Part shown: positions 1,772 to 56,180 of the stretch, piece by piece
Numbering within the stretch: the first letter of the stretch is position 1
Layout: every line of letters begins with the position of its first letter
Assembly (NCBI RefSeq): GCF_014204975.1
Contig: NZ_JACHMM010000001.1
Span: 7,006,037 to 7,070,036 of the forward strand
Source: Jiangella mangrovi
GTDB taxonomy: Bacteria > Actinomycetota > Actinomycetes > Jiangellales > Jiangellaceae
DNA length: 64,000 nt
Direction: 5' to 3'
The notes under the pieces: model-generated
Databases searched by the model: none
What the model was told of the DNA's origin: nothing
The model's input: the letters and a program-made list of their open reading frames with translations, nothing else
Program-made: the position numbers and the translations under genes

Positions 1772-2815
1772 TCAGGACTGCGTTGCGGGTTGGGGTTGGG
1801 TCGGGACTTCCTGGTGGTGCCGGGGACGCGCCCTCTCACGGGCCGCATAGGCGACAGCCGCGATGATGATCACGCCTTGGACCGCCGGCCTGATGGTCGA
1901 CGGCAAGCTCAGCTGGTTGAACAGGACGAACAGCGCCTCGAGCGTGAGCGCACCGGCCATGGCGGCGATGACGGAGCCCTTGCCGCCGCCGAGCACGACA
2001 CCGCCCAGCACCACGGCGGTGATCGCGGTGAACTCCAGGCCCTGGCCGACCTGCGCCGTGACGCCCGCGTACCCGCCGATGAGGATCGCGGCGAGGGTCG
2101 CCATGACGCTGGAGGCGACGAACGCCAGGGTGCGGACCCGCCAGACCCGGACGCCGGCGAACCCGGCCGCCCGCTCGTTGTCGCCGGTGGCCATCAACGT
2201 GCGGCCGTACGAGCTGCGCATGACCGCCACGGCGACGATGACGATCCCGAGCAGGATCATCAGCGCCCACGGCAGTTGCCGTACGACCGCCATGTCGATG
2301 CCGCCGCGCCCGGGCTGGCGGAACGCCTCGGACAGGGCGCCGGTGGGTGCGCCGCCGGTCCACAACCGGATGGCGCCGTAGAGCACCAGCATCATGCCGA
2401 GGGTCGTGATGAACGACTGCACCTTCAGCAGCGTCGTGACCAGCCCGTTGACCAGGCCGACCAGGATGCCGAACCCGAGCATCAGCAGGATGACGGGGAC
2501 GGTGCGGCCCTCCTCGCCGTCGATCAGCGCCGCGGCGATGACCACCTGGGCGCCCACCAGCGACCCGACCGACAGGTCGAACTCGCCGGACACGATGACG
2601 AAGTACTGGCCGATCGCGAGGATCATCAGCGGAGCGGCCTGCTTGAGGAACGCCATCAGCGACGGCGGCTCGGCGAAGCTCGGGTTCACGATGAAGATCC
2701 ACGCGAACACGACGATGAGCAGCGCGAACACCGTGCCGCTGCCGCCGCCGAAGAGACGCGCGAGCAGGTCGCCGACGCTCGGGCGCCGGGAGGGCTGCTG
2801 GGTCGTGGCGCTCAC
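1772..2815 (-). CDS. Sugar ABC transporter permease (ribose/xylose type)
   Basis: Integral membrane permease of 347 aa, BPD_transp_2 family (RbsC/XylH-like). About eight to ten hydrophobic segments are visible, and the family signature appears as GEFDLSVGSLVG followed by the GLVNGLVTTLLKV loop that contacts the ATPase. The start overlaps the stop of the other permease (ATGA at 2812-2815), so the two are translationally coupled. Two different permeases indicate a heterodimeric channel. It feeds the same sugar as the binding protein downstream. Confidence 0.88.
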   Translation of the reverse strand: MSATTQQPSRRPSVGDLLARLFGGGSGTVFALLIVVFAWIFIVNPSFAEPPSLMAFLKQAAPLMILAIGQYFVIVSGEFDLSVGSLVGAQVVIAAALIDGEEGRTVPVILLMLGFGILVGLVNGLVTTLLKVQSFITTLGMMLVLYGAIRLWTGGAPTGALSEAFRQPGRGGIDMAVVRQLPWALMILLGIVIVAVAVMRSSYGRTLMATGDNERAAGFAGVRVWRVRTLAFVASSVMATLAAILIGGYAGVTAQVGQGLEFTAITAVVLGGVVLGGGKGSVIAAMAGALTLEALFVLFNQLSLPSTIRPAVQGVIIIAAVAYAARERARPRHHQEVPTQPQPATQS

Positions 2816-3918
2816 TTGGTGCCTCCCGTGCTGCCGGCCGGGACGGGGTCGCCGGGTGCTGAGTCCGGTGGCGGCGGGCCGGGTGGCGCGGAGCCGCCGC
2901 TGCCGCCGTCACCCCCGAAGCGGACCCGGCTGGCCTTCCGGTCGATCTGCCGGCGGGCGTAGATGGCGACGGCGGCGACGATGATCACGCCGCGCAGCAC
3001 GTCCTTGAAGAACGGGTCGACCTCGAGGATGTTGAAGACGGTGTCGAGCACGGCCAGGATCAGCACGCCGGCGATGGTGCCGCCGATGCCGCCGCGCCCG
3101 CCCATGAGCAGCGTCCCGCCGAGCACGACGGCGGCGATGGAGTCGAGGTCGTAGCCGGAGTCGTAGACCAGCGCGCTGCCGGTGCCGAACCGGGCCGCGA
3201 GCAGCAGGCCGGCCAGGCCCGCGGCGACCGCGCACAGCACGTGCGCCGTCACGATCACCCGGCCGGTGCGGATGCCCGAGAGCCGCGAGACGTCCTCGCT
3301 GCCGCCCACGGCGAACATGTGGTAGCCGGTGCGGGTCTTGCGCAGGAACAGGATCCCGGCGACGGCGACGGCCAGCATGACGATCGTCGACAGCGGGACC
3401 GGGCCGATGCGGCTGTAGCCGAACTGCTGGAACGAGCTCGGCACGTCGCCGGCCGGACCCTGGTACTCGGTGTCGAGATAGCCCTTGATGATCAGCCCGA
3501 CGCCCAGCGTCGCGATGAACGGGTTCACCTTGAGCACCGAGATGATCAGGCCGTTGGTCAGGCCGATCAGGGCGGCCACCACCAGGACGGCGCCGATGGC
3601 CAGCGGCACCCGGGCGGGGTCGCCGTTCATCGTCGTCGCGGCGATCAGGCTGCACAGCGCCATGACGTAGCCGACCGACAGGTCGAGCGACCGGCAGAGG
3701 ATCACCAGCGTCTGGCCGATGGCGACGAACCCGAGCAGGCTCGACCGGGTCAGCATGTCGCGGGTGTTCGCGGTGCTGAACAGGTTGTGTCCGTCGACGG
3801 CGACCAGGATGGCGCCGATGACCACGACCCCGGCGAGCGCCAGCCACACCAGCTCGGTGGCGCCCAGACGGCGGCGGGCGGTGCGGGTGCTCCCGGCGAC
3901 GGCGACCGCGCGGCTCAT
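2812..3918 (-). CDS. Sugar ABC transporter permease (second subunit)
   Basis: Second BPD_transp_2 permease, 368 aa. It shows the family motif CRSLDLSVGYVMAL and the ATPase-contact loop GLTNGLIISVLKVNPF, with multiple membrane segments from about residue 25 to 330. The C-terminal tail (about 335-368) is a low-complexity Gly/Pro/Ser stretch likely in the cytoplasm. Its start overlaps the stop of the ATPase gene (ATGA, 3915-3918) and its stop overlaps the start of the next permease. It pairs with that permease in one importer. Confidence 0.88.
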   Translation of the reverse strand: MSRAVAVAGSTRTARRRLGATELVWLALAGVVVIGAILVAVDGHNLFSTANTRDMLTRSSLLGFVAIGQTLVILCRSLDLSVGYVMALCSLIAATTMNGDPARVPLAIGAVLVVAALIGLTNGLIISVLKVNPFIATLGVGLIIKGYLDTEYQGPAGDVPSSFQQFGYSRIGPVPLSTIVMLAVAVAGILFLRKTRTGYHMFAVGGSEDVSRLSGIRTGRVIVTAHVLCAVAAGLAGLLLAARFGTGSALVYDSGYDLDSIAAVVLGGTLLMGGRGGIGGTIAGVLILAVLDTVFNILEVDPFFKDVLRGVIIVAAVAIYARRQIDRKASRVRFGGDGGSGGSAPPGPPPPDSAPGDPVPAGSTGGTK

Positions 3919-5447
3919 GACTGCTCCCCGTTGGTTGCGGCGTCGTGCCCCGTCGCCAGGGCCATGACGGTCTCCTCGCCGATGTCTCCGGGGCCGCCGG
4001 TCAGCTGACCCGCGATGCGGCCGTCGCGCAGGACGACGACGCGGTCGGCCATGCCGATGACCTCGGGCAGCTCGGACGAGATCATGAGAATCGCCACGCC
4101 CTGCGCCGACAGCTCGCGCATGAGCGTGTAGACGCGTTCCTTCGCGCCGACGTCGATGCCGCGGGTGGGCTCGTCGAGCACGATCACCTTCGGCTCAGTG
4201 GCCAGCCACTTGGCCAGCACGACCTTCTGCTGGTTGCCGCCGGAGAGGAACCGCACCTCCTGGCTGCTGCCGCGCGAGACAAGCTCGAGCGAGTTGAGGA
4301 TGCCGGGAATGCGCCGGGCGCCCTGCGCCGCACGGCGGGGCAGGACGGCGTCGAGCACCAGCCGCGCGTTGGCCGCGACGGACTGGTTGAGCACCAGGCC
4401 CTCGCCCTTGCGGTCCTCGGTGACCAGCGCCAGCCCGGACCGGACGGCCTGCCGCGGCGAGCGCAGCGTCACCGGGCGGCCGTCGAGCAGCACCTCGCCG
4501 CGGGTGAACCGGTCGACCCCGAACAGCGCGTGCGCGATCTCGGTCCGCCCGCTGCCCTGCAGCCCGGCCAGCGCCACGATCTCGCCGCCGCGGACCGTCA
4601 GGTCGATGCCGTCGACCTGCTCGTTGCCGCCCTGGCGGATCTCGAGCCGGACGTCGCCGGGTTCGGTTCCCGGCACCTTGTCCGGGAAGAAGCTGGAGAT
4701 CGGCCGGCCGACCATCTTGCGGACCAGCTCGTCGGAGGTGATGTCGGCGGTCGCGACGGTATCGACCAGCGCGCCGTCCTTGAGGATCGTGACGCGGTCG
4801 GACAGGTCGAAGATCTCCTTGAGCCGGTGCGACACGTAGAGGATGGCGACGCCGCGCTGCTTCAGCGTCGCGATGAGGCGGTAGAGCAGTTCCACCTCCT
4901 CGTCGGCCAGCGCGGCGGTCGGCTCGTCCATCGAGATGATCCGCGCGTCGTAGGACAGCGCCTTGACGATCTCGACGATCTGCTGGCCGGCCACCGACAG
5001 CGAACGCACCCGCGTCTCCGGTCGCAGCCAGGTGAGCCCAAGGTCGGTCAGTAGCGCCTGGGTGTCGGCGTTCATCCGCCCCGCGTCGACCAGCCGGTTG
5101 CGGCGCGGCTCGCGGCCGAGGAACACGTTCTCGGCGACGGTGCGCTCCGGCAGCAGGTTGAACTCCTGGAACACCGTCGACACACCGGCCTGCTGCGCCT
5201 GCAGCGGGTGCTCGAACCGGACGCTCTGCCCGTCGAGCTCGACGGTGCCGCCGTCCGCCTGGTAGACGCCGGCGAGGATCTTCATCAGCGTCGACTTGCC
5301 GGCGCCGTTCTCGCCGATGAGCGCGTGCACCTCGCCCGCGCGCAGATCGAGGTCGACGCCGTGCAGCACCTGGACCCCGAGGAACGACTTCTCGATGCCG
5401 CTCATCCGCAGCAGCGTCGTGGCGGGACTCACCACGTCAGAGCTCAT
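3915..5447 (-). CDS. Sugar ABC transporter ATP-binding protein (two ATPase domains)
   Basis: Cytoplasmic ATPase of 510 aa with two fused nucleotide-binding domains, as in RbsA/XylG. The first has GENGAGKST and the linker LSVAGQQIVEIVKAL with MDEPTAAL. The second has a degenerate Walker A, GLQGSGRTE, an intact signature LSGGNQQKVVLAKWL and LDEPTRGIDVGAK. An asymmetric pair is normal for this family. The start at 5447 (MSSDVV) overlaps the oxidoreductase stop by ATGA; upstream in-frame sequence is out-of-frame shadow of that gene. It powers the two adjacent permeases. Confidence 0.9.
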   Translation of the reverse strand: MSSDVVSPATTLLRMSGIEKSFLGVQVLHGVDLDLRAGEVHALIGENGAGKSTLMKILAGVYQADGGTVELDGQSVRFEHPLQAQQAGVSTVFQEFNLLPERTVAENVFLGREPRRNRLVDAGRMNADTQALLTDLGLTWLRPETRVRSLSVAGQQIVEIVKALSYDARIISMDEPTAALADEEVELLYRLIATLKQRGVAILYVSHRLKEIFDLSDRVTILKDGALVDTVATADITSDELVRKMVGRPISSFFPDKVPGTEPGDVRLEIRQGGNEQVDGIDLTVRGGEIVALAGLQGSGRTEIAHALFGVDRFTRGEVLLDGRPVTLRSPRQAVRSGLALVTEDRKGEGLVLNQSVAANARLVLDAVLPRRAAQGARRIPGILNSLELVSRGSSQEVRFLSGGNQQKVVLAKWLATEPKVIVLDEPTRGIDVGAKERVYTLMRELSAQGVAILMISSELPEVIGMADRVVVLRDGRIAGQLTGGPGDIGEETVMALATGHDAATNGEQS

Positions 5448-44071: not shown

Positions 44072-44653
44072 TCAGCCGAGGTCGCCGTGGTCGAGGGCGG
44101 CCCGGCAGGCCCAGACCCACAGATCGGCGGCGCCCGAGCCGGGCGGCGTGGCGACGTCGACGAGGCGTTCGGCGCCGTCGGCGGTGCGGACGAGGGCGCG
44201 CAGGCCGCCCGGCGGCGGGCCGTCGCAGTCGGCGGCGAAGCCGTCCTGGACGAACCGGCCCCAGTCGCCCGGCTCGACGGTCACCGGATCGGGCGCGTTG
44301 CCGGCGGTAGGGGTGATGCCGTCGGCCTCGATGTGGAGGATCTCGATGCGGTGTTCGCCCGCGTTGAGCAGGTTCAGCTCCACCATCCCCGTCAGCCGCG
44401 CGCCGGGCTGGGTCAGCAGCGGCACCACCGGGCCGCCGACCACGCGGGCCTCGGCGTAGTCGGCCGCATCGCCGCGGGCCTGGACCACGACGCCGCCGAC
44501 GATCGCGCCGAGGAGGAACACCGCCGTCAGCACGAGCCAGGCGGGCGGGCGCCGACGCGCCGTCCGGTCCGGAGTCAGCGTCTGGTCGCCCGGCTCCGCC
44601 GGCCCGACGACGCCCAGGTCGAGGGGCTCCGAAGCTGCCTCACCGCGGTCCAC
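44072..44653 (-). CDS. Single-pass membrane protein downstream of the adenylation-acyltransferase
   Basis: Protein of 193 aa. The first about 37 residues are cytoplasmic, then a helix LVLTAVFLLGAIVGGVVV, then an outside domain of about 135 residues with two cysteines (ADCDGPP and WVWACRA). No family is recognised. GTG 44653 overlaps the end of the preceding gene by 79 bases; a later start is possible. It is on the same strand as the iron-regulated fusion protein and so may be part of the same system. It is convergent, 7 bases from the hypothetical gene. Confidence 0.6.
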   Translation of the reverse strand: MDRGEAASEPLDLGVVGPAEPGDQTLTPDRTARRRPPAWLVLTAVFLLGAIVGGVVVQARGDAADYAEARVVGGPVVPLLTQPGARLTGMVELNLLNAGEHRIEILHIEADGITPTAGNAPDPVTVEPGDWGRFVQDGFAADCDGPPPGGLRALVRTADGAERLVDVATPPGSGAADLWVWACRAALDHGDLG

Positions 44654-47199
44654 CCCACCATTGTCAGCCCGCCCGTCAGGCGGCCGGCCAGCCACCAGGC
44701 CGCGACGCCGACGGCGAGGGAGCCGGCCACGGCGAGGCCGGGGTGGATGTCGTTCAGCCGCGGGTAGACCTGCCAGTGCGTCAGGTAGACGTACAGCGAA
44801 CTGCTGGCCAGCACGCTCACCACCCGGCTCAGCGCCGACGGCACCGGCACGGTGGTCAGCCACAGCAGCGACGCGATCCCGGCGACGATCGCCAGCTCGC
44901 GCGCGGACTGGCCGAAGAAGCCTGGCACGGTCGCCGCCAGCACCGCCGTCAGGGCCAGCCGCTGCCACCACGTCGTCGACCGGGCCGCCGCCCAGCCGAA
45001 GGCGAACAGCCAGAACACCGGCATGGTGTGCGGCACCCCGAGGTCGACGATCCCGTACCGCCCGAGCAGCCCGAACCCCAGCAGCACGGCGGGGAAGACG
45101 AGCGGGAACCGCCGCTCCAGCCGGTCGACGGACGGGATCGCCAACAGCGCCGCCAGGACGACGAGGATGTAGACGAGCACCTCGACGAACCAGAAGTGCC
45201 ACTCCGACGTCCACGACGACGGCCCGAACAGGCCGTTCATCAGCACGATGTTGAGCGGGCCGTACTGGTTCGTCAGCAGCACGACGCCGGCGATCCAGAT
45301 GACGCTGGGGACGGCGATGCGGGCGATGCTGACGGCCTGCTGCCGCAGCCGCGTCACCCGGCCGGCGCTCGTGAGCCGGAACCGGGCGAAGTTGAACCCG
45401 GCCACGGCCACCAGCACGTGCGCCCCGCCGAGCAGCGTGAACAGCCCGGCGTGGGTGCTGATGACGCACACGATCGCCAGCGCCCGGAGCGCCGCGCTCG
45501 TCTCGAGCCGCCGCAGCCGCAGCACCCGCCGCCAGCCGCGCGCCTCCACGGCGACCAAGGACGACGCGCCGGCCGCCAGCTCGCGCAGCGGCGTCACGTG
45601 CCAGTTCGGCGGGACGACGCCGAGCTCGTCCTCGAGCCGGATCGACATCTCGACGTACGAGAGCGAGTCCCCGCCGAGGTCGACGAAGGTGCTGTCCAGT
45701 GTCGCGTCGGGCCGGCCCAGCAGCTCGGCATACAGCGCGCGCAGCCGCTCCGGCAGGTCGCCCGGCGACGAAGACCCCACCGCGGCCGAGGCGACCGGCG
45801 CGGCCGGCGCGGCCGACGTCACCAGCCGCGCCAGCTCCGGGTAGTCGACCTTCCCGTTGGCCAGTCTCGGCAACGGGGCGACAGCGGCGACGGTGACCGC
45901 GCGAACCGGCAGCCCGAACCGGTCGGCGATCTCCCGGCGGACGGCGTCCGGCTCGGCTCCGTCGACGGCGACGAGCAGCTCGCCGTCGGCGCCGGTGCAG
46001 CGGACGGCGACGCCGGGGCGGGACAGGGCGGTCTCGAGGTGGTCGAGGTCGACCCGCAGCCCGGCGATCTTCACGAACCGGCTGCGCCGCCCGACGATCT
46101 CGACCAGGCCCTCGGGCGTGCGCCGGGCGAGGTCGCCGGTGCGCAGCGCCGTCACGGTCCGGCCGAGGGCGAGGTCGGCCGGCTCCGACGCGTACCCCAG
46201 CATCACGTTGGGGCCGTGGTAGACGAGCTCGCCGACGCCGGGCGTGGTGACCTCGGGCGCCGGCTCGATGACGAACGAGCCGCCCGGGATCGGCACCCCC
46301 ACCGCCGACGGGTGCGCGGCGGCCAGCTCCGGCGGCAGGTACGCCATCCGCGCCGTCGCCTCGGTCTGCCCGTACATGACGACGAAGTCCCACCCGCCGC
46401 GCCGCCCGAGCTCGGCGTAGCGGCGCACCCGGCCGGGGTCGAGCCGCCCGCCGGCCTGCGTGACGTAGCGCAGCCGCGGCAGCCGCATCCGGTCGAATCC
46501 GACACGGTCCAGCAGGTCGAACGTGTGCGGGACGCCGGCGAGTGTGGTGCCGCCCTCGGCCTCGAACAGGTCCCAGAAGCAGGAGTCGGCGACGGACAGG
46601 TCGCTGAGCACGACGGTCGCGCCCCGCAGCAGGTGCGTGTGCACCACCGACAGCCCGTACACGTAGTGCAGCGGGAGGGTGGTCACGGCGCGGTCGGTGT
46701 CGCGCACACCGAGGAACTGCGCGATCGACTCCGCGTTGGCCTGGACGTTCCGGTGCGACAGCCGGGCCAGCTTCGGCGAGCCGGTCGAGCCGGACGTCGA
46801 CATCAGCAGTGCCAACTCGGGGTGCAGGTCGTGCGCGGGCGGGCGCCGCCGGACCTCCAGCTCGCCGCCGGGCGGCAGCACGGCGTCGGGGTCGTAGGCG
46901 GCCGCGACGGTGCCGGCGTGCGCGGGCGGCACCAGTAGCGCGACGTGCCCGCCGACCAGCGCCGCGAGGTAGGTGACCAGCTGGGCGGCGTCGTTCGCAC
47001 CACTGACGAGCACCAGCCGCCGTCCGCCGCCGAGCCGGGCCGCCGTCGCGTCGACCTGCTGGGCCAGCTCGCGGTAGGTCCAGCGCTGATCTCCGGCGAC
47101 GACGGCGAGCCGGTCCCCGTGCCGGGCGAGGTCGCGCGCGAACGGCACGGCCACAGGCGCACCCGCCGCGGGCACGGACTGCGGCAAGGCCAACGTCAT
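44575..47199 (-). CDS. Adenylation / acyl-carrier / membrane acyltransferase fusion protein
   Basis: Protein of 874 aa. Adenylation domain 1-460: STSGSTGSPK (134-143), YGQTEA (276-281), LRTGDLA and catalytic Lys450 in NGKVD. Carrier domain about 480-550: LGGDSLSYVEM with phosphopantetheine Ser512. Membrane acyltransferase_3 domain about 565-860 with about ten helices and His583. The simplest reading is that one polypeptide activates an acid, loads it on its own carrier and transfers it to a membrane-side or outside acceptor. An iron box lies 53 bases upstream, so it should be made when iron is low. The acid and acceptor are unknown. Confidence 0.85.
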   Translation of the reverse strand: MTLALPQSVPAAGAPVAVPFARDLARHGDRLAVVAGDQRWTYRELAQQVDATAARLGGGRRLVLVSGANDAAQLVTYLAALVGGHVALLVPPAHAGTVAAAYDPDAVLPPGGELEVRRRPPAHDLHPELALLMSTSGSTGSPKLARLSHRNVQANAESIAQFLGVRDTDRAVTTLPLHYVYGLSVVHTHLLRGATVVLSDLSVADSCFWDLFEAEGGTTLAGVPHTFDLLDRVGFDRMRLPRLRYVTQAGGRLDPGRVRRYAELGRRGGWDFVVMYGQTEATARMAYLPPELAAAHPSAVGVPIPGGSFVIEPAPEVTTPGVGELVYHGPNVMLGYASEPADLALGRTVTALRTGDLARRTPEGLVEIVGRRSRFVKIAGLRVDLDHLETALSRPGVAVRCTGADGELLVAVDGAEPDAVRREIADRFGLPVRAVTVAAVAPLPRLANGKVDYPELARLVTSAAPAAPVASAAVGSSSPGDLPERLRALYAELLGRPDATLDSTFVDLGGDSLSYVEMSIRLEDELGVVPPNWHVTPLRELAAGASSLVAVEARGWRRVLRLRRLETSAALRALAIVCVISTHAGLFTLLGGAHVLVAVAGFNFARFRLTSAGRVTRLRQQAVSIARIAVPSVIWIAGVVLLTNQYGPLNIVLMNGLFGPSSWTSEWHFWFVEVLVYILVVLAALLAIPSVDRLERRFPLVFPAVLLGFGLLGRYGIVDLGVPHTMPVFWLFAFGWAAARSTTWWQRLALTAVLAATVPGFFGQSARELAIVAGIASLLWLTTVPVPSALSRVVSVLASSSLYVYLTHWQVYPRLNDIHPGLAVAGSLAVGVAAWWLAGRLTGGLTMVGWTAVRQLRSPSTWASSGRRSRATRR

Positions 47200-47251
47200 G
47201 ACTTCTCACGCACCGTTTCGCACGGAGCCGTGCTCGAGGCTCGGCGACTTT

Positions 47252-47270
47252 TAAGGCGAGGCTTACCTTA
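47252..47270. promoter_or_regulatory. Iron box (IdeR/DmdR-type) before the adenylation-acyltransferase gene
   Basis: TAAGGCGAGGCTTACCTTA matches the 19-base consensus TWAGGTWAGSCTWACCTWA at 17 positions and is a near-palindrome. It is 53 bases upstream of the ATG at 47199 in an otherwise GC-rich intergenic region. Confidence 0.85.
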
Positions 47271-47333
47271 AATGTCGCGAGCCAGACATTCAACCCAGTG
47301 AGGCAAGGCATCCCTCACCAGCGCGCGCCACGG

Positions 47334-50300
47334 TCAGAAGCGTAGCCAGGTCCCGGCCAGTGGCTGCTGCTCGGCCCCCGGCACGGAGTAGTCGCAGACG
47401 CCGCCGTCGAACACGCCCAGCAACCGTTCCCACTGCGCGTCGCTGAACTCGACGGCGTAGTCGGACCGTTGCGGCGAGCGCAGCCGGCACTTGACGACGT
47501 CGGCCGCGACGGACTCGCCGGCCACCTCGCGCGGGAAGGACGCCGTCGGGTACAGGGTCTCGCAGGTGCTGGACGGGTCGCGGGTGAGGGTCTCTGCCAC
47601 GAAGACCGGCTCGGCGTCGCGGGTCATGCAGCCCTCGACCAGCGTGGCCGGCCGCGCCGCGGCCACATCGGGCGACGGCGACGCCGCCAGGTTCCGCAGC
47701 CAGGTGTCCATGCTCGCGACGGCGTGCCGCAGCAGCGGGCTCTCGGTGCTGAACCCGGTGTAGCGCATGTCCTCGACCAGCCCGACGAGGTTCGCGGACG
47801 AGCCGTTCGCCTTCTCCAGCCGCTCGCGCATCGAGAACGAGTGGTAGCGCAGGTGCAGCTCGCCGTTCGGGTTGTCGTCGCGATACGTGCGGTAGTCGAT
47901 GATCGGGACGCTCGCCAGCCCGCCGCCACCGCTGGTCAGCCGGCCGGTCCGGTACGCCGCCGCGATGGCCGCCGGGTCCCCCGTCGTCCGCTCCGGCACC
48001 AGGTTCGCGTCGTCGTCGAAGCCGCCGACGTGCTCGTTGAGGTCGAGGAACTGGTCGGCGCTGATGGCCCCGGACGACAGCGCAGCCAGCCCGTACTGCA
48101 CGCCCACGTTGTCCAGCGGGCGGCGCGCGAACCCCGTCGCCGGGTCGCGGCCGTAGACGTTGACGGCGTGGTCGTAGACGCCGCAGCGGACGCCGTCCGG
48201 GTTGGCCGACGGGTCGTAGCGCTGCGCCGCCGGCACCATGGCGCAGTAGGAGCGCGGGTCGATGCGGCGGGCGCCCCCGGCGACGGCGGCAGCGGTGGCA
48301 TCGGTCGCGAACCCGGTGACGGCCAGCCGCTCGTCCTCGGTCCAGGAAGACCCCCGCCTGGTGAAGTAGGAGTCCAGGAGCCAGGCGTCGGTGATCATGT
48401 TCACGGTCGCGAAGCCGACGTCGGGGAACGAGCAGCCGACGATGATGCCGTCGAGGAGCCCCGGGTAGTTGTCGGCGATCTGGTACGCCTGGTACGACCC
48501 TCCGGAGCAGCCGAACCCGATGACGTGGTCGACCGGGCCGTACCGCTCGACAAACCGCTCCTTCACCATCGAGGCGGTCTCGGCGGCGGTGAGGTCGCTG
48601 CAGTTCGACCCGAAGACGTTCAGCGACGACGACATCAGCCCGTATCCCTGGCCCAGCAGGTACGGGTCGACGACGCCGCCGGTGTTGCGGCCCTGCCGGT
48701 ACCAGCCGTTGGTGCAGCCGCCGCCGAACGTGAACACCGTCGCGCCGTTCCACCCCGGCGGGCGCGCGTGCTCCGACGGCGCGGGCGCCGGATCCGCGAG
48801 CGGGTCGTGCAGCACGGTGGTCTGGTAGACGGCGCGGTTGACGGTGCCGGTCTCCATCCGCACGACGAACGGCACCCGCGCGCCGTCGCTGGTGGTCGTG
48901 GTCACCAGGTCGGCCGGGTACTCGGTGGCCCCGTCCGGCCATGGCGCGAACGTGTCGCCCGTCGTGCGGTAGAAGTGGTCGACGCGCTCGGCGATGCCGC
49001 AGTCCTCGTCCAGTGGCGCACCCAGCGTGCCGCCGATTACCGGCACCGTGAACTGCGCCGTCTCGCAGCGGAACGGCTGCTGGTGCGGGCCGGAGAAGAC
49101 CGGACCCTCGATCGGGTGGCCGGTGAGCCGGACCGCGGTCCGCGAGGCCTCGGACCCGGCGCGCGCGGCCAGCACGTTGGCGCCGTCGTGCAACCCGGTG
49201 ACCAGGCCGGTCAGGCTACGACCGGCCGGGTCGGGGGCGAAGGACGCGGAGACGTCGACGTCGTTGACGGTGACCGCGACGGCGTCGAGCGGAACGCCGT
49301 CGTCGTTCACGGAGACCCGCACCAGCGCGTCGCCGCCGCTCACCGCGTCGGGCCGGCTGGACAGGACGCTCAGCGCGAGCGTCCCGTCCCCCTCCTCGTC
49401 GCCGGCCTCCGAGGTCGTGACGGTGACCGGCGCGGACGCGGGACCGGCGAAGGCGGGCCGGCCGGGGTCGGGCTCGGTGAACGCGTAGACGCGGAACTCG
49501 TAGCTCGTCGACGGCGCCAGCCCGGTGACGTCGAGCGACGTCGCGGCCGCGCCCACGCGCCCGGCCAGCTCCCACAGCTCGGTCCCGGCGACCCGCCGCT
49601 CGACGTCGTAGCCGTCGGCCCCGTCCGTCCCGGTCCACGAGACCCGGGCCGACGACGGCGACAGCGCGCTTCCCGCGACTCCCGCCACGGCGCCGGGAAC
49701 CGGGTCGCGGGTGACCAGCACCGCGTCGGCGATGACGAACCCGTCGGCATCGTCGGACAGCTCGACCCGCCCGGCCGCGCCCGCCTCGAACCGGTACGCC
49801 CCGAGGTCCACCCAGACGCCCGGCCGCGAGTCGCCGACGACCCTGGCCTGGCCGCGCTGGTCGATCCGGGCCGTCGTCGCGCCGTCGGCGTGGTGGACGG
49901 TGAACGGCGCGTCGGAGGCGCGGTTGGCGTGCGCGACCGCCCACGCCAGCACGTGGTACTCCCCCGTGACCGGCACGTCGACCTGCCAGCTGACCGACCG
50001 GGCGCCGGTGCCGGCCGCCGCGGACCGGTAGCTGACGCCGTAGTACGGGTGCCCCGCCTGGCCCGTCGCGCGGCCCCAGGTGCCGGTCATGCGGAACGCG
50101 CCGACAGACTCGTCGTCGACGACGACGTCGCGCTTGGTCTCGTCGGACGGGTGCTCGGCGGCGATCAGCGTCAGCTCGTCCGGCGCGATCGTGGTGCCGC
50201 CGAGCCGGCCCGGCTCCAGCAGCGTGAACCGGATCCGGTGCAGTCCACGATCGAGCGCGACGTCGCCGTGCTGGTAGGTCTGGTACGCCGCGCCGCTGTC

Positions 50301-52493
50301 CAGGCTCGGGTCCAGCACGCCGTCCGGCAGCAGCTGCCCGTCGATGCTCATCTGGATCCGGCCGGCGTCCTGACCGCGGGCGTAGCGCACGGCGACCTCG
50401 AACGCGCCCTCGTCGCGCGGCAGCCGGAACGGCAGCTCCAGGTAGTCGCCGGGACCGGTCGCCTCGTACGTGAGCGCAGCGCCGCCACGGGCGTTCTCGT
50501 CGGCGACGGGCTCGGGTCGGGGCTGCGGCACTCGTGCCCGTTCGGTCTCGTCCAGCGGCAGGTGCACGACGGCGTCCGCCGCGGCCGCGCTGTCCCGAGA
50601 GGCCGCCAGCGCCGCCACCTCGTCCGCCGTCAGCGCCCGGCCGTACAGGCGCACCTCGTCGACGCCGCCCACCAGCCGGTTCGCGCCGTCCGGCCGCTGC
50701 CCGACGTAGATGCCGTCACGGGCGCTGAACGCGAGGTCGCCGGTCGGGGACGCCGCCTGGGCGACCCGGACCCCGTCGACGTACAGCGCGAGGTCGCCGC
50801 CGCCGCGGGTCAGCGCGACATGGTGCCAGGCGTCGTCGGCGTAGGCGCCGGGCGCGGTGAGCGTGGCGGTGGCCAGGCCGGTGTCGACGAGCGCCTGGAT
50901 CCGGTTGCTGCCCGGCTCGGCGCGCAGCCACCACTGCGGCGTGGCCGACCCCCAGCCGTACGCCCAGAGGATCGCCTGGCTGGCCGTGGCGCCGGTGCGG
51001 AACCAGGCCGTGGCGGTGAACGTGTCGCCGGCGGCGCGGACGGCGTCGGTGGCGGGGATCTCGAGGTGGTCGTCGCCGTCGAGGATCGCGGCGCCGTCGG
51101 CGAACGACGGCGCCCCGCCCACCAGCGCGTCGTTGCCGCCCGCGGCGTCCGGCGTCACGGTGCGGGTGGCGGGCGCCCCGGCCGGCGGCCGCGTCACGGC
51201 GCCCGCCGCGTCGCCCAGCTCGAACGCGTGCTCCGTGATGCCCGGCCCGTCGCCGGAGCCGGTGTCGCGGCCGTCGGTCAGCCAGGCGAGGTCGAACCGC
51301 GCCATGACCAGCCGCGCCGGCGAGCCGAGGATCTCGCCGTCGCGGCCGTAGAACAGCAGCAGCGTCCCGTCGGACAGCACCGCGAGGTCGGAGTAGTACG
51401 ACGGGCCCGGGTTGACGATCGTGTCGTAGCGGTAGGTGGCGCCGTCGTCGTAGCTGACCGACACGGTGAGCGCCTCGCGGCGGGCGGAGTCGGGCCGCGC
51501 GTGCAGCAGGCGGCCCACGCCGTCGGCACCCTCGTAGTGCAGGAACCCGGCGTCGACGGCGGTGTAGCGGCCGGTCGCGGGCTCGAGCACGGGGTCGGAC
51601 CAGGTCTCGCCGCCGTCGGCGCTGACCGAGCTGATCCGCTGCCGGTGCCCGCCGGCCGCCGACCGCCCGTTGACGACCAGGGCGCCGTCACCGCGCTCGT
51701 AGATGCGGCTCTCGTTGATCGGGTAGTTGACGTCGACGGGGACCGGCTCGCCCGCGTGCCAGGTGGCGCCGTGGTCGTCGCTGTAGATCGCCGAGACACC
51801 GTAGAGCCGCTCGGGCGTGGTGTGGCCGACGACCTCGCGGCGGTGCAGCACCTGCATGACCAGCCGGCCGTCCTGGAGCTGCAGGCCGTGGCCCGGGCCG
51901 GGACCGTGCAGCGTCCAGTCGTACGGGTTGCCGGCGAACAGCTCGTCCAGCTCCTCCGGCGCGCTCCAGGTGACGCCGTCGTCGCTGCTGCGGCTCAGGT
52001 AGATCTCCTGGTAGTCGCCCGAGCAGCCGGTGTTGGCCGGGTCGAGGATCGAGAGGCCGAAGAACAGGAAGACCTCGCCGGTCTCGCCGTCGACCACGGG
52101 CGTCGGGTTGCCCCACGACTGCCCGTCGACGGACGGGACGACGATGCGGCTCGGCTCCCACGAGTCGCCGCCGTCGGTGCTGCGGCGCAGGACGATGTCG
52201 CGCGGCCCGGCGTCGCAGACTTCGTGCCGGCCCTCGGTGAACGCCAGGGTCGTGTCCGACGGCGTCACCGCGAGACCCTGCACGTGGTAGCTCTCGTGCG
52301 GGCCCTCGGCGGAGTCCCAGAGGACGGTCTCGTCGAACTCCCCCGGCGCGGTATCGGCGACGGGGTCAGCTGCCGGTTCCGCTGTGGTCACCGCGGGGGT
52401 CGCCGCAGGGGTCGCCGCGGCCGGCGGCACCGTCGTCAGGGTGAGGGCCGCGGCCAGCACCGTCGCCGCCGCCCGCCAGATCCGCCGTCGCAT
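47334..52493 (-). CDS. Secreted sialidase / LamG / FN3 / DUF6351-type esterase fusion
   Basis: Secreted protein of 1719 aa. Signal 1-28; sialidase beta-propeller about 55-400 with repeated Asp boxes (STDGGDSWEP, SSDDGVTWSAP, SDDHGATWHAG, SADGGETWSDP) and PSYYSDLAVLSDGTLLLFYG, carrying the likely catalytic Tyr; LamG-like domain about 430-640; carbohydrate-binding-type and golvesin-like segments about 680-930; FN3 about 935-1025; C-terminal alpha/beta hydrolase about 1060-1719 of the DUF6351/tannase-like type with nucleophile Ser1330 in GFGCSGGSY. It likely trims and de-esterifies a sialylated or similar glycan. AGGGAG precedes the ATG. A 14-bp palindrome overlaps its promoter. Confidence 0.85.
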   Translation of the reverse strand: MRRRIWRAAATVLAAALTLTTVPPAAATPAATPAVTTAEPAADPVADTAPGEFDETVLWDSAEGPHESYHVQGLAVTPSDTTLAFTEGRHEVCDAGPRDIVLRRSTDGGDSWEPSRIVVPSVDGQSWGNPTPVVDGETGEVFLFFGLSILDPANTGCSGDYQEIYLSRSSDDGVTWSAPEELDELFAGNPYDWTLHGPGPGHGLQLQDGRLVMQVLHRREVVGHTTPERLYGVSAIYSDDHGATWHAGEPVPVDVNYPINESRIYERGDGALVVNGRSAAGGHRQRISSVSADGGETWSDPVLEPATGRYTAVDAGFLHYEGADGVGRLLHARPDSARREALTVSVSYDDGATYRYDTIVNPGPSYYSDLAVLSDGTLLLFYGRDGEILGSPARLVMARFDLAWLTDGRDTGSGDGPGITEHAFELGDAAGAVTRPPAGAPATRTVTPDAAGGNDALVGGAPSFADGAAILDGDDHLEIPATDAVRAAGDTFTATAWFRTGATASQAILWAYGWGSATPQWWLRAEPGSNRIQALVDTGLATATLTAPGAYADDAWHHVALTRGGGDLALYVDGVRVAQAASPTGDLAFSARDGIYVGQRPDGANRLVGGVDEVRLYGRALTADEVAALAASRDSAAAADAVVHLPLDETERARVPQPRPEPVADENARGGAALTYEATGPGDYLELPFRLPRDEGAFEVAVRYARGQDAGRIQMSIDGQLLPDGVLDPSLDSGAAYQTYQHGDVALDRGLHRIRFTLLEPGRLGGTTIAPDELTLIAAEHPSDETKRDVVVDDESVGAFRMTGTWGRATGQAGHPYYGVSYRSAAAGTGARSVSWQVDVPVTGEYHVLAWAVAHANRASDAPFTVHHADGATTARIDQRGQARVVGDSRPGVWVDLGAYRFEAGAAGRVELSDDADGFVIADAVLVTRDPVPGAVAGVAGSALSPSSARVSWTGTDGADGYDVERRVAGTELWELAGRVGAAATSLDVTGLAPSTSYEFRVYAFTEPDPGRPAFAGPASAPVTVTTSEAGDEEGDGTLALSVLSSRPDAVSGGDALVRVSVNDDGVPLDAVAVTVNDVDVSASFAPDPAGRSLTGLVTGLHDGANVLAARAGSEASRTAVRLTGHPIEGPVFSGPHQQPFRCETAQFTVPVIGGTLGAPLDEDCGIAERVDHFYRTTGDTFAPWPDGATEYPADLVTTTTSDGARVPFVVRMETGTVNRAVYQTTVLHDPLADPAPAPSEHARPPGWNGATVFTFGGGCTNGWYRQGRNTGGVVDPYLLGQGYGLMSSSLNVFGSNCSDLTAAETASMVKERFVERYGPVDHVIGFGCSGGSYQAYQIADNYPGLLDGIIVGCSFPDVGFATVNMITDAWLLDSYFTRRGSSWTEDERLAVTGFATDATAAAVAGGARRIDPRSYCAMVPAAQRYDPSANPDGVRCGVYDHAVNVYGRDPATGFARRPLDNVGVQYGLAALSSGAISADQFLDLNEHVGGFDDDANLVPERTTGDPAAIAAAYRTGRLTSGGGGLASVPIIDYRTYRDDNPNGELHLRYHSFSMRERLEKANGSSANLVGLVEDMRYTGFSTESPLLRHAVASMDTWLRNLAASPSPDVAAARPATLVEGCMTRDAEPVFVAETLTRDPSSTCETLYPTASFPREVAGESVAADVVKCRLRSPQRSDYAVEFSDAQWERLLGVFDGGVCDYSVPGAEQQPLAGTWLRF

Positions 52494-52502
52494 GCCAGCT
52501 CC

Positions 52503-52516
52503 CTAATACGTATTAG
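52503..52516. promoter_or_regulatory. CTAATACGTATTAG palindrome, LacI-type operator
   Basis: Perfect 14-bp palindrome with central CG, beginning nine bases upstream of the ATG of the sialidase gene and just before its ribosome site. TAATAC within it could also be the -10, so repressor and polymerase would compete. Confidence 0.6.
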
Positions 52517-52644
52517 AGTGGATGGCCACGACGTTACCGGGACATTTCGAGCGCGGACAATGGCTCCCCCGCGCACCGCCGCCCGGCACGCAGACCAGCG
52601 ATCACCGTCCGCCCGTGACCCGATTCGCCATCCCAGCCCACGTT

Positions 52645-52711
52645 GATCTTGGAGTAACCGTGGGATCAACCGGGACATTCCGCTCGCCAACCCCGCGGTT
52701 ACTCCAAGATC
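52645..52711. repeat. 19-bp inverted repeat, GATCTTGGAGTAACCG
   Basis: GATCTTGGAGTAACCGTGG (52645-52663) recurs in reverse complement at 52693-52711 with one mismatch, separated by 29 bases. It lies in the 355-base gap between the divergent-in-function sialidase gene start and the zur 3' end; the rest of that gap shows no gene. Possible zur terminator or a dispersed palindrome. Confidence 0.6.
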
Positions 52712-52848: not shown

Positions 52849-53262
52849 TCAGGCGGCGGCGCAGCGGGGGCAGGTGCCGAAGATCTCGAGCGTGTGCGAC
52901 ACGTCGGCGTAGCCGTGCTGGTCGGCGACCGACTTGGCCCAGCGCTCGACCGTGGGGCCGGCGATCTCGACCGTCGCGCCGCAGGACCGGCAGACCAGGT
53001 GGTGGTGGTGCTCCTCGCGGACGCAGCGGCGGTACACGGCCTCGCCGGCGTCGGAGCGCAGCACGTCGACCCGGCCGTCGTCGGCGAGGGTCTGCAGGGT
53101 GCGATAGACGGTGGCCAGCCCGACCCCGGCGCCGCGAGCCCGCAGCAGCGAGTGCAGCTCCTGGGCGCTGATGAAGTCCTCGGTCTCGTCGAGGACCTCG
53201 TCGACCGCGGCGCGCTGTCGCGTGCGGCGGTGCTCCTTGGCCGGCTGTTGGCGTACCGTCAC
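52849..53262 (-). CDS. zur: Zinc uptake regulator Zur (Fur family)
   Basis: Fur-family repressor of 137 aa. Winged helix about 10-75: TRQRAAVDEVLDETEDFISA, GVGLATVYRTLQTLADDG. The metal sites are HHHHLVCRSCG (about 88-98) and FGTCPRCAA at the C-terminus, a structural Cys4 zinc site. GTG 53262 gives the usual actinobacterial length; ATG 53304 is the longer alternative. It is divergent from znuA and the Zur box at 53415 lies between. With zinc bound it should repress the znu genes. Confidence 0.88.
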   Translation of the reverse strand: MTVRQQPAKEHRRTRQRAAVDEVLDETEDFISAQELHSLLRARGAGVGLATVYRTLQTLADDGRVDVLRSDAGEAVYRRCVREEHHHHLVCRSCGATVEIAGPTVERWAKSVADQHGYADVSHTLEIFGTCPRCAAA

Positions 53263-53414
53263 GTGAGTCGCCCGCTCCCCCTGCTCGCGCCTGTCGATTC
53301 TCATTCCCAACACAGTCTATCTCCGAAGGTGCTTCGGAGACGAGCGTCCGCGCCGCTTCGGCCCCGAAGATCCTCAACGGGCGAACGCCCCAGGACGTTC
53401 CGAACAGGCCCTTT

Positions 53415-53429
53415 TGACAATGGTTGTCA
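53415..53429. promoter_or_regulatory. Zur box, TGACAATGGTTGTCA
   Basis: Perfect 6-bp arms TGACAA/TTGTCA around TGG, close to the Zur/Fur-type consensus TGANAATGNTTNTCA. It sits 22 bases upstream of the znuA ATG, where a bound repressor would block transcription. Confidence 0.8.
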
Positions 53430-53450
53430 CTCTTGATGAGAATGTCTCCC

Positions 53451-54425
53451 ATGAAGAACCGTCGTGCGGCTGCGGCCGCGCTGAGCACCGCCGCCCTGGC
53501 GGGCCTCCTCCTCACCTCCTGCGGCGATGGCGGCGACGCCACCGCGAGCGGCGGCGACGGCCCCACCGTCGCCGCGGCCTTCTATCCGCTGGCGTTCGTG
53601 ACCCAGCAGGTCGCGGGCGACCACGCCACGGTCGAGAACCTCACCCAGGCCGGCGGCGAGCCGCACGACCTCGAACTGACGGGCCGGCAGGTCGGCGAGA
53701 TCGCCGACGCCGACCTGGTCGTGTATCTGGCCGGCTTCCAGCCGTCGGTCGACGAGGCGATCGAGCAGAACGCCGAGGATCGCGCCGTCGACGTCGCGGG
53801 CCTGGTCGAGCTGCTCGACAACCCCGAGGACCACGGCGACGAGCATGCCGAGGAGGAGCACGCCGAGGACGAGGACCACGAGGGTCACGACCACGGCGAC
53901 CTCGCCGGCGACCCGCACATCTGGCTCGACCCGACCAACCTCGAGCCGATCGCTGCCGCCGTCGCCGACCGGCTGGCCGAGGCCGACCCGGACCACGCCG
54001 ACGACTACCACGCCAACGCCGACGCGCTGACCACCGAGCTCGAGGCCCTCGACCAGGAGTTCGAGGCCGGCCTGGCCCAGTGCACGCAGCGGGTGTTCGT
54101 CGTGGCGCACGAGGCGTTCGGCTACCTCGCGCACCGCTACGACCTCGAGCAGGTGGGCATCTCCGGCATCGACCCCGAGGCCGAGCCGTCGCCGGAGCGA
54201 CTGGCCGAGGTGCACGACGTCGTCCGGGCCGAGGGCGTCACCACGATCCTCTACGAGCGCCTGGTCAGCCCGGACGTCGCCGAGACGCTGGCGAACGACC
54301 TCGGCGTCGAGGCGGCCGTCCTCGACCCCATCGAGGGACTCACCGACGACACCTCCGACCAGGACTACTTCAGCCTGATGCGGGCCAACCTGGAGGCACT
54401 GCGATCCGCCAACGGGTGTTCGTGA
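53451..54425 (+). CDS. znuA: Zinc ABC transporter substrate-binding lipoprotein
   Basis: Zinc-binding lipoprotein of 324 aa. Signal about 1-25 ending LLTSC. VAAAFYPLAFVTQQVAG is the family opening, with GGEPHDLELTG giving the first His ligand. A His/Asp/Glu-rich loop (about 120-155: EHAEEEHAEDEDHEGHDHGD) and GDPHIWLDP, HEAFGYLAHRY supply the rest. ATG 53451 is chosen for a normal signal peptide; ATGs at 53442 and 53436 are in frame. Controlled by the Zur box. Confidence 0.9.
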   Translation: MKNRRAAAAALSTAALAGLLLTSCGDGGDATASGGDGPTVAAAFYPLAFVTQQVAGDHATVENLTQAGGEPHDLELTGRQVGEIADADLVVYLAGFQPSVDEAIEQNAEDRAVDVAGLVELLDNPEDHGDEHAEEEHAEDEDHEGHDHGDLAGDPHIWLDPTNLEPIAAAVADRLAEADPDHADDYHANADALTTELEALDQEFEAGLAQCTQRVFVVAHEAFGYLAHRYDLEQVGISGIDPEAEPSPERLAEVHDVVRAEGVTTILYERLVSPDVAETLANDLGVEAAVLDPIEGLTDDTSDQDYFSLMRANLEALRSANGCS

Positions 54426-54438
54426 GTACGGTGACCTC

Positions 54439-55194
54439 ATGAGAGCCGCCGTCGTCGACGTCCGCGGGCTGCGGGTCGAGCTCGACGATCGCCCGGTGCT
54501 GCACGGCGTCGACCTCCGCGTCGTCGAGGGCGAGGTCGTCACACTCCTGGGCCCCAACGGATCGGGCAAGTCCACGCTGGTGCGCTCGACGGTCGGCCTG
54601 GTGCCGGTGGCCGCCGGCGAGATCCAGCTGTTCGGGACCCCGCTCAAGTCCTTCCACGACTGGTGGCGGGTCGGCTACGTGCCCCAGCGCACGACGGCGG
54701 CCGCCGGGGTTCCGGCGACGGTGCGCGAGGTGGTCGCCGCCGGCCGGTTGGCCCGGCGCACGCTGTTCCGGCCGGCCCGCAAGGCCGACCGCGACGCCGT
54801 CGACCACGCCATCGAGCTGGTCGGGCTGGCCGAGCACGCCGGGCGCAGCGTCGCCAGCCTGTCCGGCGGGCAGCAGCAGCGGGTCCTCATCGCCCGCGCC
54901 GCCGCTTCCGAGCCTGACCTGCTGGTGCTCGACGAGCCCAACGCCGGCGTCGACCGGCGCAGCCAGGAGGCGTTCGCCCGGGCGCTACGCACGTTCGTCG
55001 CGTCGGGCCGCACGGTGCTGCTGGTGCTGCACGAGATGGGGCCGCTCGCGCCGCTGGTCGACCGCGGCGTCGCCCTCGAGTCCGGCCGCGTCGTCCACGA
55101 CGGCCCGCTGCCGACGCCGTCGATGACGCTGACCGGGGCGCCGGACCACCACGACGACCATCGCGAGGACTACGGGGCGGGCCTGTTCGGATGA
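54439..55194 (+). CDS. znuC: Zinc ABC transporter ATP-binding protein
   Basis: ATPase of 251 aa. Walker A GPNGSGKST (about 38-46), signature [15 protein letters not shown], Walker B LLVLDEPNAGVD, switch His in LLVLHEM. It follows znuA by 13 bases and overlaps znuB by ATGA (55191-55194). It powers zinc uptake. Confidence 0.92.
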   Translation: MRAAVVDVRGLRVELDDRPVLHGVDLRVVEGEVVTLLGPNGSGKSTLVRSTVGLVPVAAGEIQLFGTPLKSFHDWWRVGYVPQRTTAAAGVPATVREVVAAGRLARRTLFRPARKADRDAVDHAIELVGLAEHAGRSVASLSGGQQQRVLIARAAASEPDLLVLDEPNAGVDRRSQEAFARALRTFVASGRTVLLVLHEMGPLAPLVDRGVALESGRVVHDGPLPTPSMTLTGAPDHHDDHREDYGAGLFG

Positions 55195-56180
55195 GCTTCC
55201 TCGACTACGACTTCATGCAGCGGGCGCTGATCGCCGCCGTCCTCACCGGGCTGGCCGCGCCCGCCGTCGGCACCTACCTGGTGCAGCGGCGGCTGGCGCT
55301 CATGGGCGACGGGCTCGGGCACGTCGCGCTGACCGGTGTCGCCGTCGGCCTGCTGACCGGCTGGGCGCCGGTGTGGACGTCGGTGGCGGTCGCCGTGCTC
55401 GGCGCGCTGGCCATCGACGCCGTCCGCGCCAAGGGCCGGGCGTCGGCCGACGTCGCGCTGGCCATGCTGTTCTACGGCGGCATCGCGGGCGGCGTGCTGA
55501 TCACCGGGCTGGCCGGCAGCACGGCGGCAACGCTCAACACGTACCTGTTCGGCTCCATCACGACGGTGTCCTCTGACGACCTGTGGGTGGTCGCCGTCCT
55601 GGCGGTCGTGGTCATCGCGCTGGGCGTGGGCCTGGCGCCGCAGCTCTTCGCCGTCTGCCAGGACGAGGAGTTCGCCCGGGTCAGCGGCCTGCCGGTGCGG
55701 CTGTACAGCATGCTGATCGCCGTCATGGCCGCGGTGACGGTCACCGTCGCCATGCGCACGGTCGGGCTGCTGCTGGTCAGCGCGCTCATGGTGGTGCCGG
55801 TCGCGACGGCGCAGCAGCTCACCCGCAGCTTCCGGACCACGTTCGCGCTGGCCATGGCGCTCGGCGTGGTGCCGTCGCTGGGCGGCGTGGTCTTCTCGTA
55901 CTACGTCGACGTCGCGCCGGGCGCGAGCATCGTGGTCGCGTCGCTGTGCGGGTTCGTGCTGGCCTGGCCGCTGGGCTCGCTGCTGCGGCGACGGCGCAAC
56001 GCCCGTTCCGTCAACGGCGAGGACCCGCGGGTCACCGGGGCGCACGTGCCCACCGAGCAGCACCCGCACCAGCACGACGACGAGTGCGGCCACCCCAAGG
56101 TCGAGCACGGCGACCACTCCGACTACCTGCACGACGGCCACCTCCACGCCGCGCACGGACGCCACTACGACGAGCACTGA
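55191..56180 (+). CDS. znuB: Zinc ABC transporter permease with His-rich tail
   Basis: ABC-3 family permease of 329 aa with about eight helices. It has LMGDGLGHVALTGVAVGLLT and ALMVVPVATAQQLTRSF motifs. After the last helix (about 270) a cytoplasmic tail of about 55 residues holds roughly 14 His (QHPHQHDDECGHP, EHGDHSDYLHDGHLHAAH-like), longer than in the usual family. It may hold zinc on the inside. It is last in the znu operon. Confidence 0.9.
   Translation: MSFLDYDFMQRALIAAVLTGLAAPAVGTYLVQRRLALMGDGLGHVALTGVAVGLLTGWAPVWTSVAVAVLGALAIDAVRAKGRASADVALAMLFYGGIAGGVLITGLAGSTAATLNTYLFGSITTVSSDDLWVVAVLAVVVIALGVGLAPQLFAVCQDEEFARVSGLPVRLYSMLIAVMAAVTVTVAMRTVGLLLVSALMVVPVATAQQLTRSFRTTFALAMALGVVPSLGGVVFSYYVDVAPGASIVVASLCGFVLAWPLGSLLRRRRNARSVNGEDPRVTGAHVPTEQHPHQHDDECGHPKVEHGDHSDYLHDGHLHAAHGRHYDEH

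Follow-up and report, generated by a model that had tools for sequence, protein, structure and literature searches.

Within the window, a stretch of 64,000 nucleotides from the genome of Jiangella mangrovi, one gene encodes a single chain that joins a GH33-type propeller to a complete DUF6351 domain. A histidine occupies the place of the first triad arginine of sialidases in this propeller, and the gene is preceded by a palindrome that it shares with LacI-family genes elsewhere in the genome. We regard it as an even call that the chain is a secreted two-enzyme component of a catabolic regulon, which would deacylate its substrate and release a non-canonical ulosonic-type sugar.

The host is a one-contig Jiangella genome of 7.16 Mb, and the open reading frame list of the window gives the frame at 47334-52493 on the minus strand as one chain of 1719 amino acids. 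Its parts, together with the element in front of it, are as follows:

47334..52493, minus strand: whole 1719-residue chain; residues 1 to about 28 form an N-terminal signal-like stretch, as judged by eye
51264..52352, minus strand: GH33-type Asp-box propeller, residues 48-410 (Pfam, structure match, model)
52284..52286, minus strand: codon of H70, which stands where sialidases have the first triad arginine (alignment to the Micromonospora viridifaciens sialidase)
50613..51080, minus strand: LamG-like domain (Laminin_G_3), residues 472-627 (Pfam)
49707..50516, minus strand: CBM35-like and golvesin-type pair, residues 660-929 (Pfam, sequence match to 6f2p); the CBM35-like match is weak and lies under the Pfam cut-off
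49458..49685, minus strand: FN3 linker, residues 937-1012 (Pfam fn3)
47361..49373, minus strand: DUF6351, residues 1041-1711 (Pfam)
52503..52516, no strand assigned: proposed LacI-family operator, a perfect palindrome CTAATACGTATTAG located 9 bases ahead of the start codon

In the Pfam search, BNR_2 covered residues 96-378 (E = 1.3e-31) and Golvesin_C residues 790-928, while DUF6351 (PF19878) was matched over profile positions 1-655 of 655 with 789 bits against a cut-off of 22.4 (E = 4e-237). These matches, five Asp boxes and the serine S1330 bear out the first-pass annotation, which had read a GH33-like propeller with Asp boxes, LamG, golvesin-like and FN3 modules and a C-terminal hydrolase with the motif GFGCSGGSY in one 1719-residue chain. 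A defence-system library gave zero matches. The opposite strand carries an open frame of 1725 amino acids at 47469-52646 (plus strand), which we read as a high-GC shadow and not as a gene.

The full chain was found in eight of the 22 genomes of the family (G000, G006, G010, G011, G013, G016, G018 and G019), and a ninth genome, G017, holds it in pieces with breaks at runs of N. The architecture is therefore real and not an assembly artefact of a single genome. The locus L101 was considered as a real split of the fusion; this was rejected, as the frame changes in its pieces coincide with runs of N, and the locus was counted apart. The copy in G013 (J. rhizosphaerae, L012/L095, an assembly of 440 contigs) shows a frame change near the end of DUF6351, due either to an error or to a real break.

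The propeller and the place of the first arginine

A sequence search identified the sialidase of M. viridifaciens as the nearest solved structure to the propeller (E = 6.8e-28). The AlphaFold model of the propeller, built from a seven-row alignment (pLDDT 78.8, pTM 0.85), resembles this sialidase with a TM score of 0.80-0.81 at about 29% identity over the propeller. Five Asp boxes are present at residues 105, 169, 238, 291 and 347, whereas 2000 shuffles gave a mean of 0.002, and the domain has the sialidase-fold Asp-box beta-propeller of GH33.

Catalytic residues were mapped by sequence alignment to the M. viridifaciens sialidase, in which R68 is the first triad arginine (Arg1). H70 falls at Arg1, and the remaining positions are filled by D94, E261, R277 (Arg2), R339 (Arg3) and Y367. 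The chain of the window thus has the Tyr/Glu nucleophile pair and the acid/base Asp of sialidases, and it keeps two members of the arginine triad with His in the place of the third. The triad had not been placed before; R277 and R339 can now be assigned to it, and no arginine can be assigned to Arg1. Because this defining triad was tested and found incomplete, the sialidase reading is only partly supported.

The same positions were followed in an alignment, A1, of 40 rows representing 38 genes (L019/L102 and L021/L098 each stand for one gene present twice) from the family and one Nonomuraea. Family matches for which no locus had been retrieved were excluded, as were spans of fewer than 290 query residues and duplicates. 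Asp, Glu, Arg2 and Arg3 are kept in all 40 rows and Tyr in 37, and at the place of Arg1 27 rows have His and the other 13 have Arg. The 27 His rows are exactly those at 47% identity or more. Outside A1, two close matches and ten at 38-45% identity were checked separately, and weaker ones were sampled, not exhausted. With the two close matches added, all 29 family propellers that reach 47% identity, that of the window included, have His at Arg1. All eleven matches at 38-45% identity and at least 217 bits, one of them already in A1, have Arg at this place; with them, Arg stands there in all 21 of the more distant propeller genes checked. All 27 His rows share six further arginines (R218, R219, R263, R267, R333 and R384), which the 13 Arg rows seldom have.

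In the propeller tree the His rows fall into two supported groups, one of 14 and one of 13 rows, with L087 (Arg, 44% identity) beside both; the tree does not order the three. A single origin of His at Arg1 is likely on this distribution. In a class-wide sample of 393 genomes, with at most five candidates scored per genome, propeller matches at E ≤ 1e-50 occurred in 17 genomes, all of the window's own family. One Arg-type propeller gene of Jiangella G005 (L175, 3934-6111) has Ala at the place of Glu261 in a pairwise alignment and is perhaps inactive or misaligned.

As judged from these residues, a changed pocket is the better reading of the propeller than a canonical sialidase, and the domain may still act in a sialidase-like manner on another acid sugar. 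A literature search on His at Arg1 of sialidases gave nothing on point among the papers listed, and we know of no activity for any close relative of the chain. Missing catalytic residues in either domain had been named at first as grounds for doubting the proposal; this applies in part to the propeller (Arg1) and does not apply to the esterase, in which Ser and His are invariant and several candidate acids are available.

The DUF6351 domain and its partners

The GFGCSGGSY motif begins at residue 1326, with S1330 as its serine. Among 47 DUF6351 domains, S1330 (in GxGxSGG) and H1547 are invariant, as are H1126 and D1493; D1461 and D1369 are each kept in 46 and D1533 in 43, and of the cysteines seven are kept in all 47 domains and one in 46. 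The Ser and His of a putative Ser-Asp-His esterase triad are present throughout, with several candidate acids. Among D1533, D1461, D1369 and D1493 we favour D1533 as the candidate catalytic acid because it lies 14 residues before H1547. The distant relative L128, which served solely as a distant row, keeps S1330, H1547, D1533, D1461 and D1369 and lacks D1493, H1126 and two of the cysteines. This relative (2767-5178, 27% identity) is found on an IMG/VR contig of 65.6 kb that may be host DNA.

Alignment with hhalign related DUF6351 to tannase-family proteins at 97% over 173 columns, in the nucleophile half alone. The comparison used ten tannase-family proteins picked for the motif G-x-S-x-GG (from the eleven loci L136-L146, the one without the motif being omitted), and an E-value is available for one pair only. 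Tannases and feruloyl esterases of PF07519 carry a CS-D-HC disulfide motif. DUF6351 shows neither whole-domain homology to PF07519 nor this motif, as a Cys before the Ser is variable (21/47) and no Cys follows H1547, and PF07519 is absent among the Pfam matches of the chain. Searches against PDB profiles returned weak matches at the nucleophile elbow only (oligopeptidase B, 0.011; feruloyl esterase, 0.036), and the AlphaFold model of the domain (pLDDT 45 from a seven-row alignment) bears no claim. Taken together, the invariant Ser and His and the hhalign result make the tannase-like esterase of the first-pass annotation probable: DUF6351 is likely a serine esterase that is remotely tannase-like. 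The one published mention that we found is, in the part of the source available, a passing one, in which DUF6351 belongs to proteins of unknown function (PMC10434147); two T6SS-linked proteins of Paraburkholderia sabiae are described there as Rhs plus DUF6351 (PMC10434147), which may mean that antibacterial effectors use the domain as well.

DUF6351 was above the cut-off in 61 of the 393 genomes of the class, of which 18 belong to the same family as the window. From outside the window we compared a chosen set, not all, of the DUF6351 loci: 34 distinct ones, each spanning at most 25 kb; three further loci are second copies. Eight of the 34, L101 included, are fusions. In another three (L016 of Nonomuraea, L098 and L102) the domain belongs to a row of sulfatase, BNR/LamG, GH106 and DUF6351 genes with sialidase-like propellers. 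In these rows of Nonomuraea and Jiangella, BNR/LamG or SASA follows DUF6351, and L098 has a short BNR/LamG piece before GH106. In six loci, LacI and FAD_oxidored genes lie no more than 10 kb away, joined in five of these by GH3 and GH2, while 17 have no match above 90 bits to the propeller, LacI, FAD_oxidored or GH queries; one of these 17, L123, shows weak sulfatase matches. In part of its range DUF6351 thus appears as a putative esterase of glycan clusters, with sialidase-like propellers as a repeated, not an exclusive, partner. Since GH106, GH2, GH3 and sulfatase genes are likewise found beside the domain, the ester it acts on is not necessarily that of a sialic acid.

The chain itself has not always kept the domain. 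In the window, G010 and G013 the gene lies between znu genes and an acyl-ligase gene; in G006 it adjoins zur/znu only, and in G011 it is at another place. In the znu slot of G005, G009 (J. aurantiaca) and G014 the chain ends just after FN3, without DUF6351. Since it is missing from the chain in these three Jiangella genomes, DUF6351 is dispensable to the chain. Two losses in Jiangella would be the simplest reading, because G009 is sister to the fused G013 in the propeller tree (100/98) and G005 and G014 form a separate branch; that His group, with its 14 rows, requires three changes if G017 is counted as fused. The fused domains do not form one clade in the DUF6351 tree, and the placement of the G019 domain as sister to the stand-alone copy of its own genome points to refusion or gene conversion.

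These distributions bear on whether the two domains share a substrate. The propeller could be the glycosidase of an operon and DUF6351 a recruited general glycan-cluster esterase acting on an unrelated ester, for instance a feruloyl- or galloyl-type plant acyl group or that of another polysaccharide. Such a division would suit a domain that has GH3 and GH2 neighbours in five Jiangella loci and GH106, sulfatase and SASA neighbours at other places, that is remotely related to tannases and that has been lost, and perhaps regained, on the chain. We nevertheless consider it unlikely, as the fusion in eight family genomes and the propeller neighbours in three further clusters suggest a common substrate.

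Palindrome, gene rows and a putative regulon

At up to one mismatch, the 14-mer CTAATACGTATTAG is found nowhere else in the 7.16 Mb genome. Its 12-mer core TAATACGTATTA occurs at three places under the same tolerance, and a reversed-pattern control at none. These places are in front of the fusion gene and directly in front of LacI-family genes at 609.7 and 6061.1 kb. The palindrome is present at all eight Jiangella orthologs, exact in seven and with one mismatch in G014, and it is also found at the G011 gene despite the different location. Eight LacI genes were tested. Those of three propeller rows (L134, L125 and L126) and of the sister cluster L135 are preceded by the palindrome, with one mismatch each and starting 12-32 bases before the frame; it is absent at the four beside stand-alone DUF6351 (L099, L104, L105 and L107). 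It is also absent from four Phytoactinopolyspora loci, two of which have an AraC gene in the row.

The Phytoactinopolyspora row (L106/L013) consists of genes for SBP5, a GH63-like protein (PF22422), FAD_oxidored (PF12831), a DHDPS/NAL-family protein (PF00701), a propeller, the fusion, PhyH and AraC. All of them are on the same strand and would probably be co-transcribed; the propeller is a tandem unfused copy, and a GlcNAc_2-epim gene lies beyond the row on the other strand. Parts of this row also occur in L101, L088 and L089. Jiangella has a paralogous row away from the fusion gene, in the order LacI, ABC, GH63-like, FAD_oxidored, aldolase and His-type propeller, with the ABC permeases named by eye; it is located at about 597-610 kb in the window's own genome (L115 and L134) and in part in L125, L126 and L127. 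One regulon common to the fusion gene and this sugar operon is strongly suggested for Jiangella by the shared sites, and we infer that a LacI protein binds the palindrome. L135 (own genome, 6051000-6070900), in which a LacI gene with the same operator core has a small alpha/beta hydrolase (named by eye), SBP5-like and FAD_oxidored-like neighbours, is a sister regulon.

We also considered whether the fusion gene shares an operon with zur or with the acyl-ligase gene downstream, and rejected this, since the acyl gene has its own palindrome and the one at 52503 points to LacI genes. The gene at 44578-47199 (minus strand) encodes AMP-binding, PP-binding and Acyl_transf_3 domains and is preceded at 47249-47272 by a palindrome of iron-box-like type; similar ones occur in L108, L109 and L110. 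It looks like an iron-regulated acyl-transfer enzyme in a unit separate from the fusion gene. The region directly upstream of the fusion gene, 52849-56180, holds a zur-like gene of the FUR family, a ZnuA gene and genes that by eye resemble znuC and znuB; this zur/znu neighbourhood is kept beside the fusion gene in several Jiangella.

The gene rows also bear on whether the propeller is an enzyme at all. With one of the three carboxylate-binding arginines lost, it could have ceased to be a hydrolase and become a sugar-binding module that targets the esterase. This seems to us improbable: the propeller retains its nucleophile pair and acid/base Asp, and both the three orthologs that retain propeller and lectin modules without DUF6351 and the unfused His-type propellers in a catabolic row would be odd for a targeting role.

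The row aldolase matches the DHDPS/NAL superfamily only, far below equivalog cut-offs. The own genome has 11 PF00701 genes, of which one adjoins the His-type propeller of the operon at 599.0 kb and another is separated by about 1.7 kb from the Arg-type propeller at 6130.6 kb (L004). Because the match is at superfamily level and the genome has 11 such genes, an aldolase near the propellers suits a 2-keto-3-deoxy acid only weakly. The one NanE-family gene, at 2235.8 kb, is about 377 kb from the nearest PF00701 gene, and clustered nanA, nanK and nanE were found neither among the NanE-family and PF00701 genes of this genome nor in the table of an actinobacterial survey. In the part of that survey available, Jiangellales are entered for the clustered nan set with 17, 0, 0.00% and 13, 0, 0.00%, read here as genomes and species.

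An ordinary sialidase with a built-in sialate O-acylesterase, in which His at Arg1 would merely tune affinity, has to be weighed against these results. In its favour, the closest structures solved are those of sialidases, the propeller retains Asp, Glu, Tyr and two Arg, a NAL-superfamily aldolase is in the row, and SiaBb1 of Bifidobacterium bifidum, in the part of its description available, offers a precedent for the pairing with an esterase. We judge it quite unlikely all the same, given His in 29 of 29 close matches versus Arg in 21 distant genes, 0 of 17 Jiangellales in the survey entries and a sole NanE-family gene with none of the 11 PF00701 genes nearby. What remains of the sialidase first proposed for this gene is a GH33-type propeller; a plain sialidase is disfavoured by the His at Arg1, by the survey entries and by the different operon with which the gene goes.

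Proposed mechanism and comparison with known systems

We propose that the propeller would act as a GH33-derived exo-glycosidase, with Tyr367/Glu261 as nucleophile pair and Asp94 as acid/base, in roles borrowed from sialidases. Its carboxylate pocket appears remodelled, with His for Arg1 and several arginines invariant in this group only; with a pocket of this kind, the terminal sugar is probably not plain Neu5Ac but another 2-keto-3-deoxy (ulosonic) acid, for example of the Kdn, Kdo or Dha type, and the caution over Kdo-type sugars expressed at the outset was right. The tannase-like serine esterase DUF6351 would strip an acyl group off the same glycan and thereby expose the sugar or its neighbour, while LamG, the golvesin-type pair and FN3 would anchor the chain to the glycan. 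Uptake of the freed acid may then proceed through the SBP5-type ABC transporter, and the NAL/DHDPS-family aldolase encoded in the operon may cleave it.

More specifically, and as a tentative extension that we would not yet call probable, the His-type propellers may represent a new GH33-derived specificity, built from the pocket around His70 and the group arginines, directed at an acylated ulosonic acid in glycans from soil or plants (actinobacterial Kdn teichulosonic acids or Kdo/Dha of rhamnogalacturonan II). DUF6351 would be the matching esterase, tied to the propeller by fusion, operon and a dedicated LacI-type operator. A gut Bacteroides GH33 enzyme reportedly acts on the Kdo/Dha of rhamnogalacturonan II; our literature searches on BT1020/Dha and on tannase with sialidase each gave nothing on point among the papers listed. 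As far as the available parts of the sources go, Kdn-containing teichulosonic acids of Streptomyces walls are a candidate soil glycan and rhamnogalacturonan II with Kdo/Dha is a candidate plant glycan.

If this proposal is true, it would provide the first function for the DUF6351 family, for which the fusion, the gene rows and the operator give a concrete and testable substrate class. The uniform replacement of Arg1 would be a natural experiment on carboxylate recognition by GH33 enzymes. The system may also mark an unrecorded catabolic pathway for soil or plant acid sugars in bacteria without clustered sialic acid genes, according to the available part of the survey.

Among known systems, the chain resembles the M. 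viridifaciens sialidase (GH33, 1EUR/1EUS) in fold, Asp boxes, Asp/Glu/Tyr, Arg2 and Arg3, and differs from it in His at Arg1, in the extra group-specific arginines and in DUF6351. The large form of this sialidase has further modules after the propeller, as in the chain. With the tannases and feruloyl esterases of PF07519, DUF6351 shares the nucleophile region and the preceding block, which are aligned by hhalign; however, the likeness is confined to the 173 matched columns, and CS-D-HC is lacking. Residues 660-929 of the chain align to the C-terminal 250 residues of a Paenibacillus xanthan lyase (6f2p, E = 3.7e-22), although the chain has no lyase domain. The closest parallel in design, in the part of its description available, is SiaBb1, a bifunctional protein with an SGNH O-acetylesterase and a GH33 domain, which likewise combines an esterase with a sialidase-type domain in one chain and makes a logic of deacylation followed by release, as suggested at first for the present chain, a sensible one. 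In contrast to the chain, SiaBb1 has an SGNH esterase instead of a tannase-like DUF6351, is an active Neu5Ac sialidase and comes from the gut and not from soil. A fusion of sialidase and esterase is therefore of a known kind; new here are the propeller subfamily, DUF6351 and the putative regulon.
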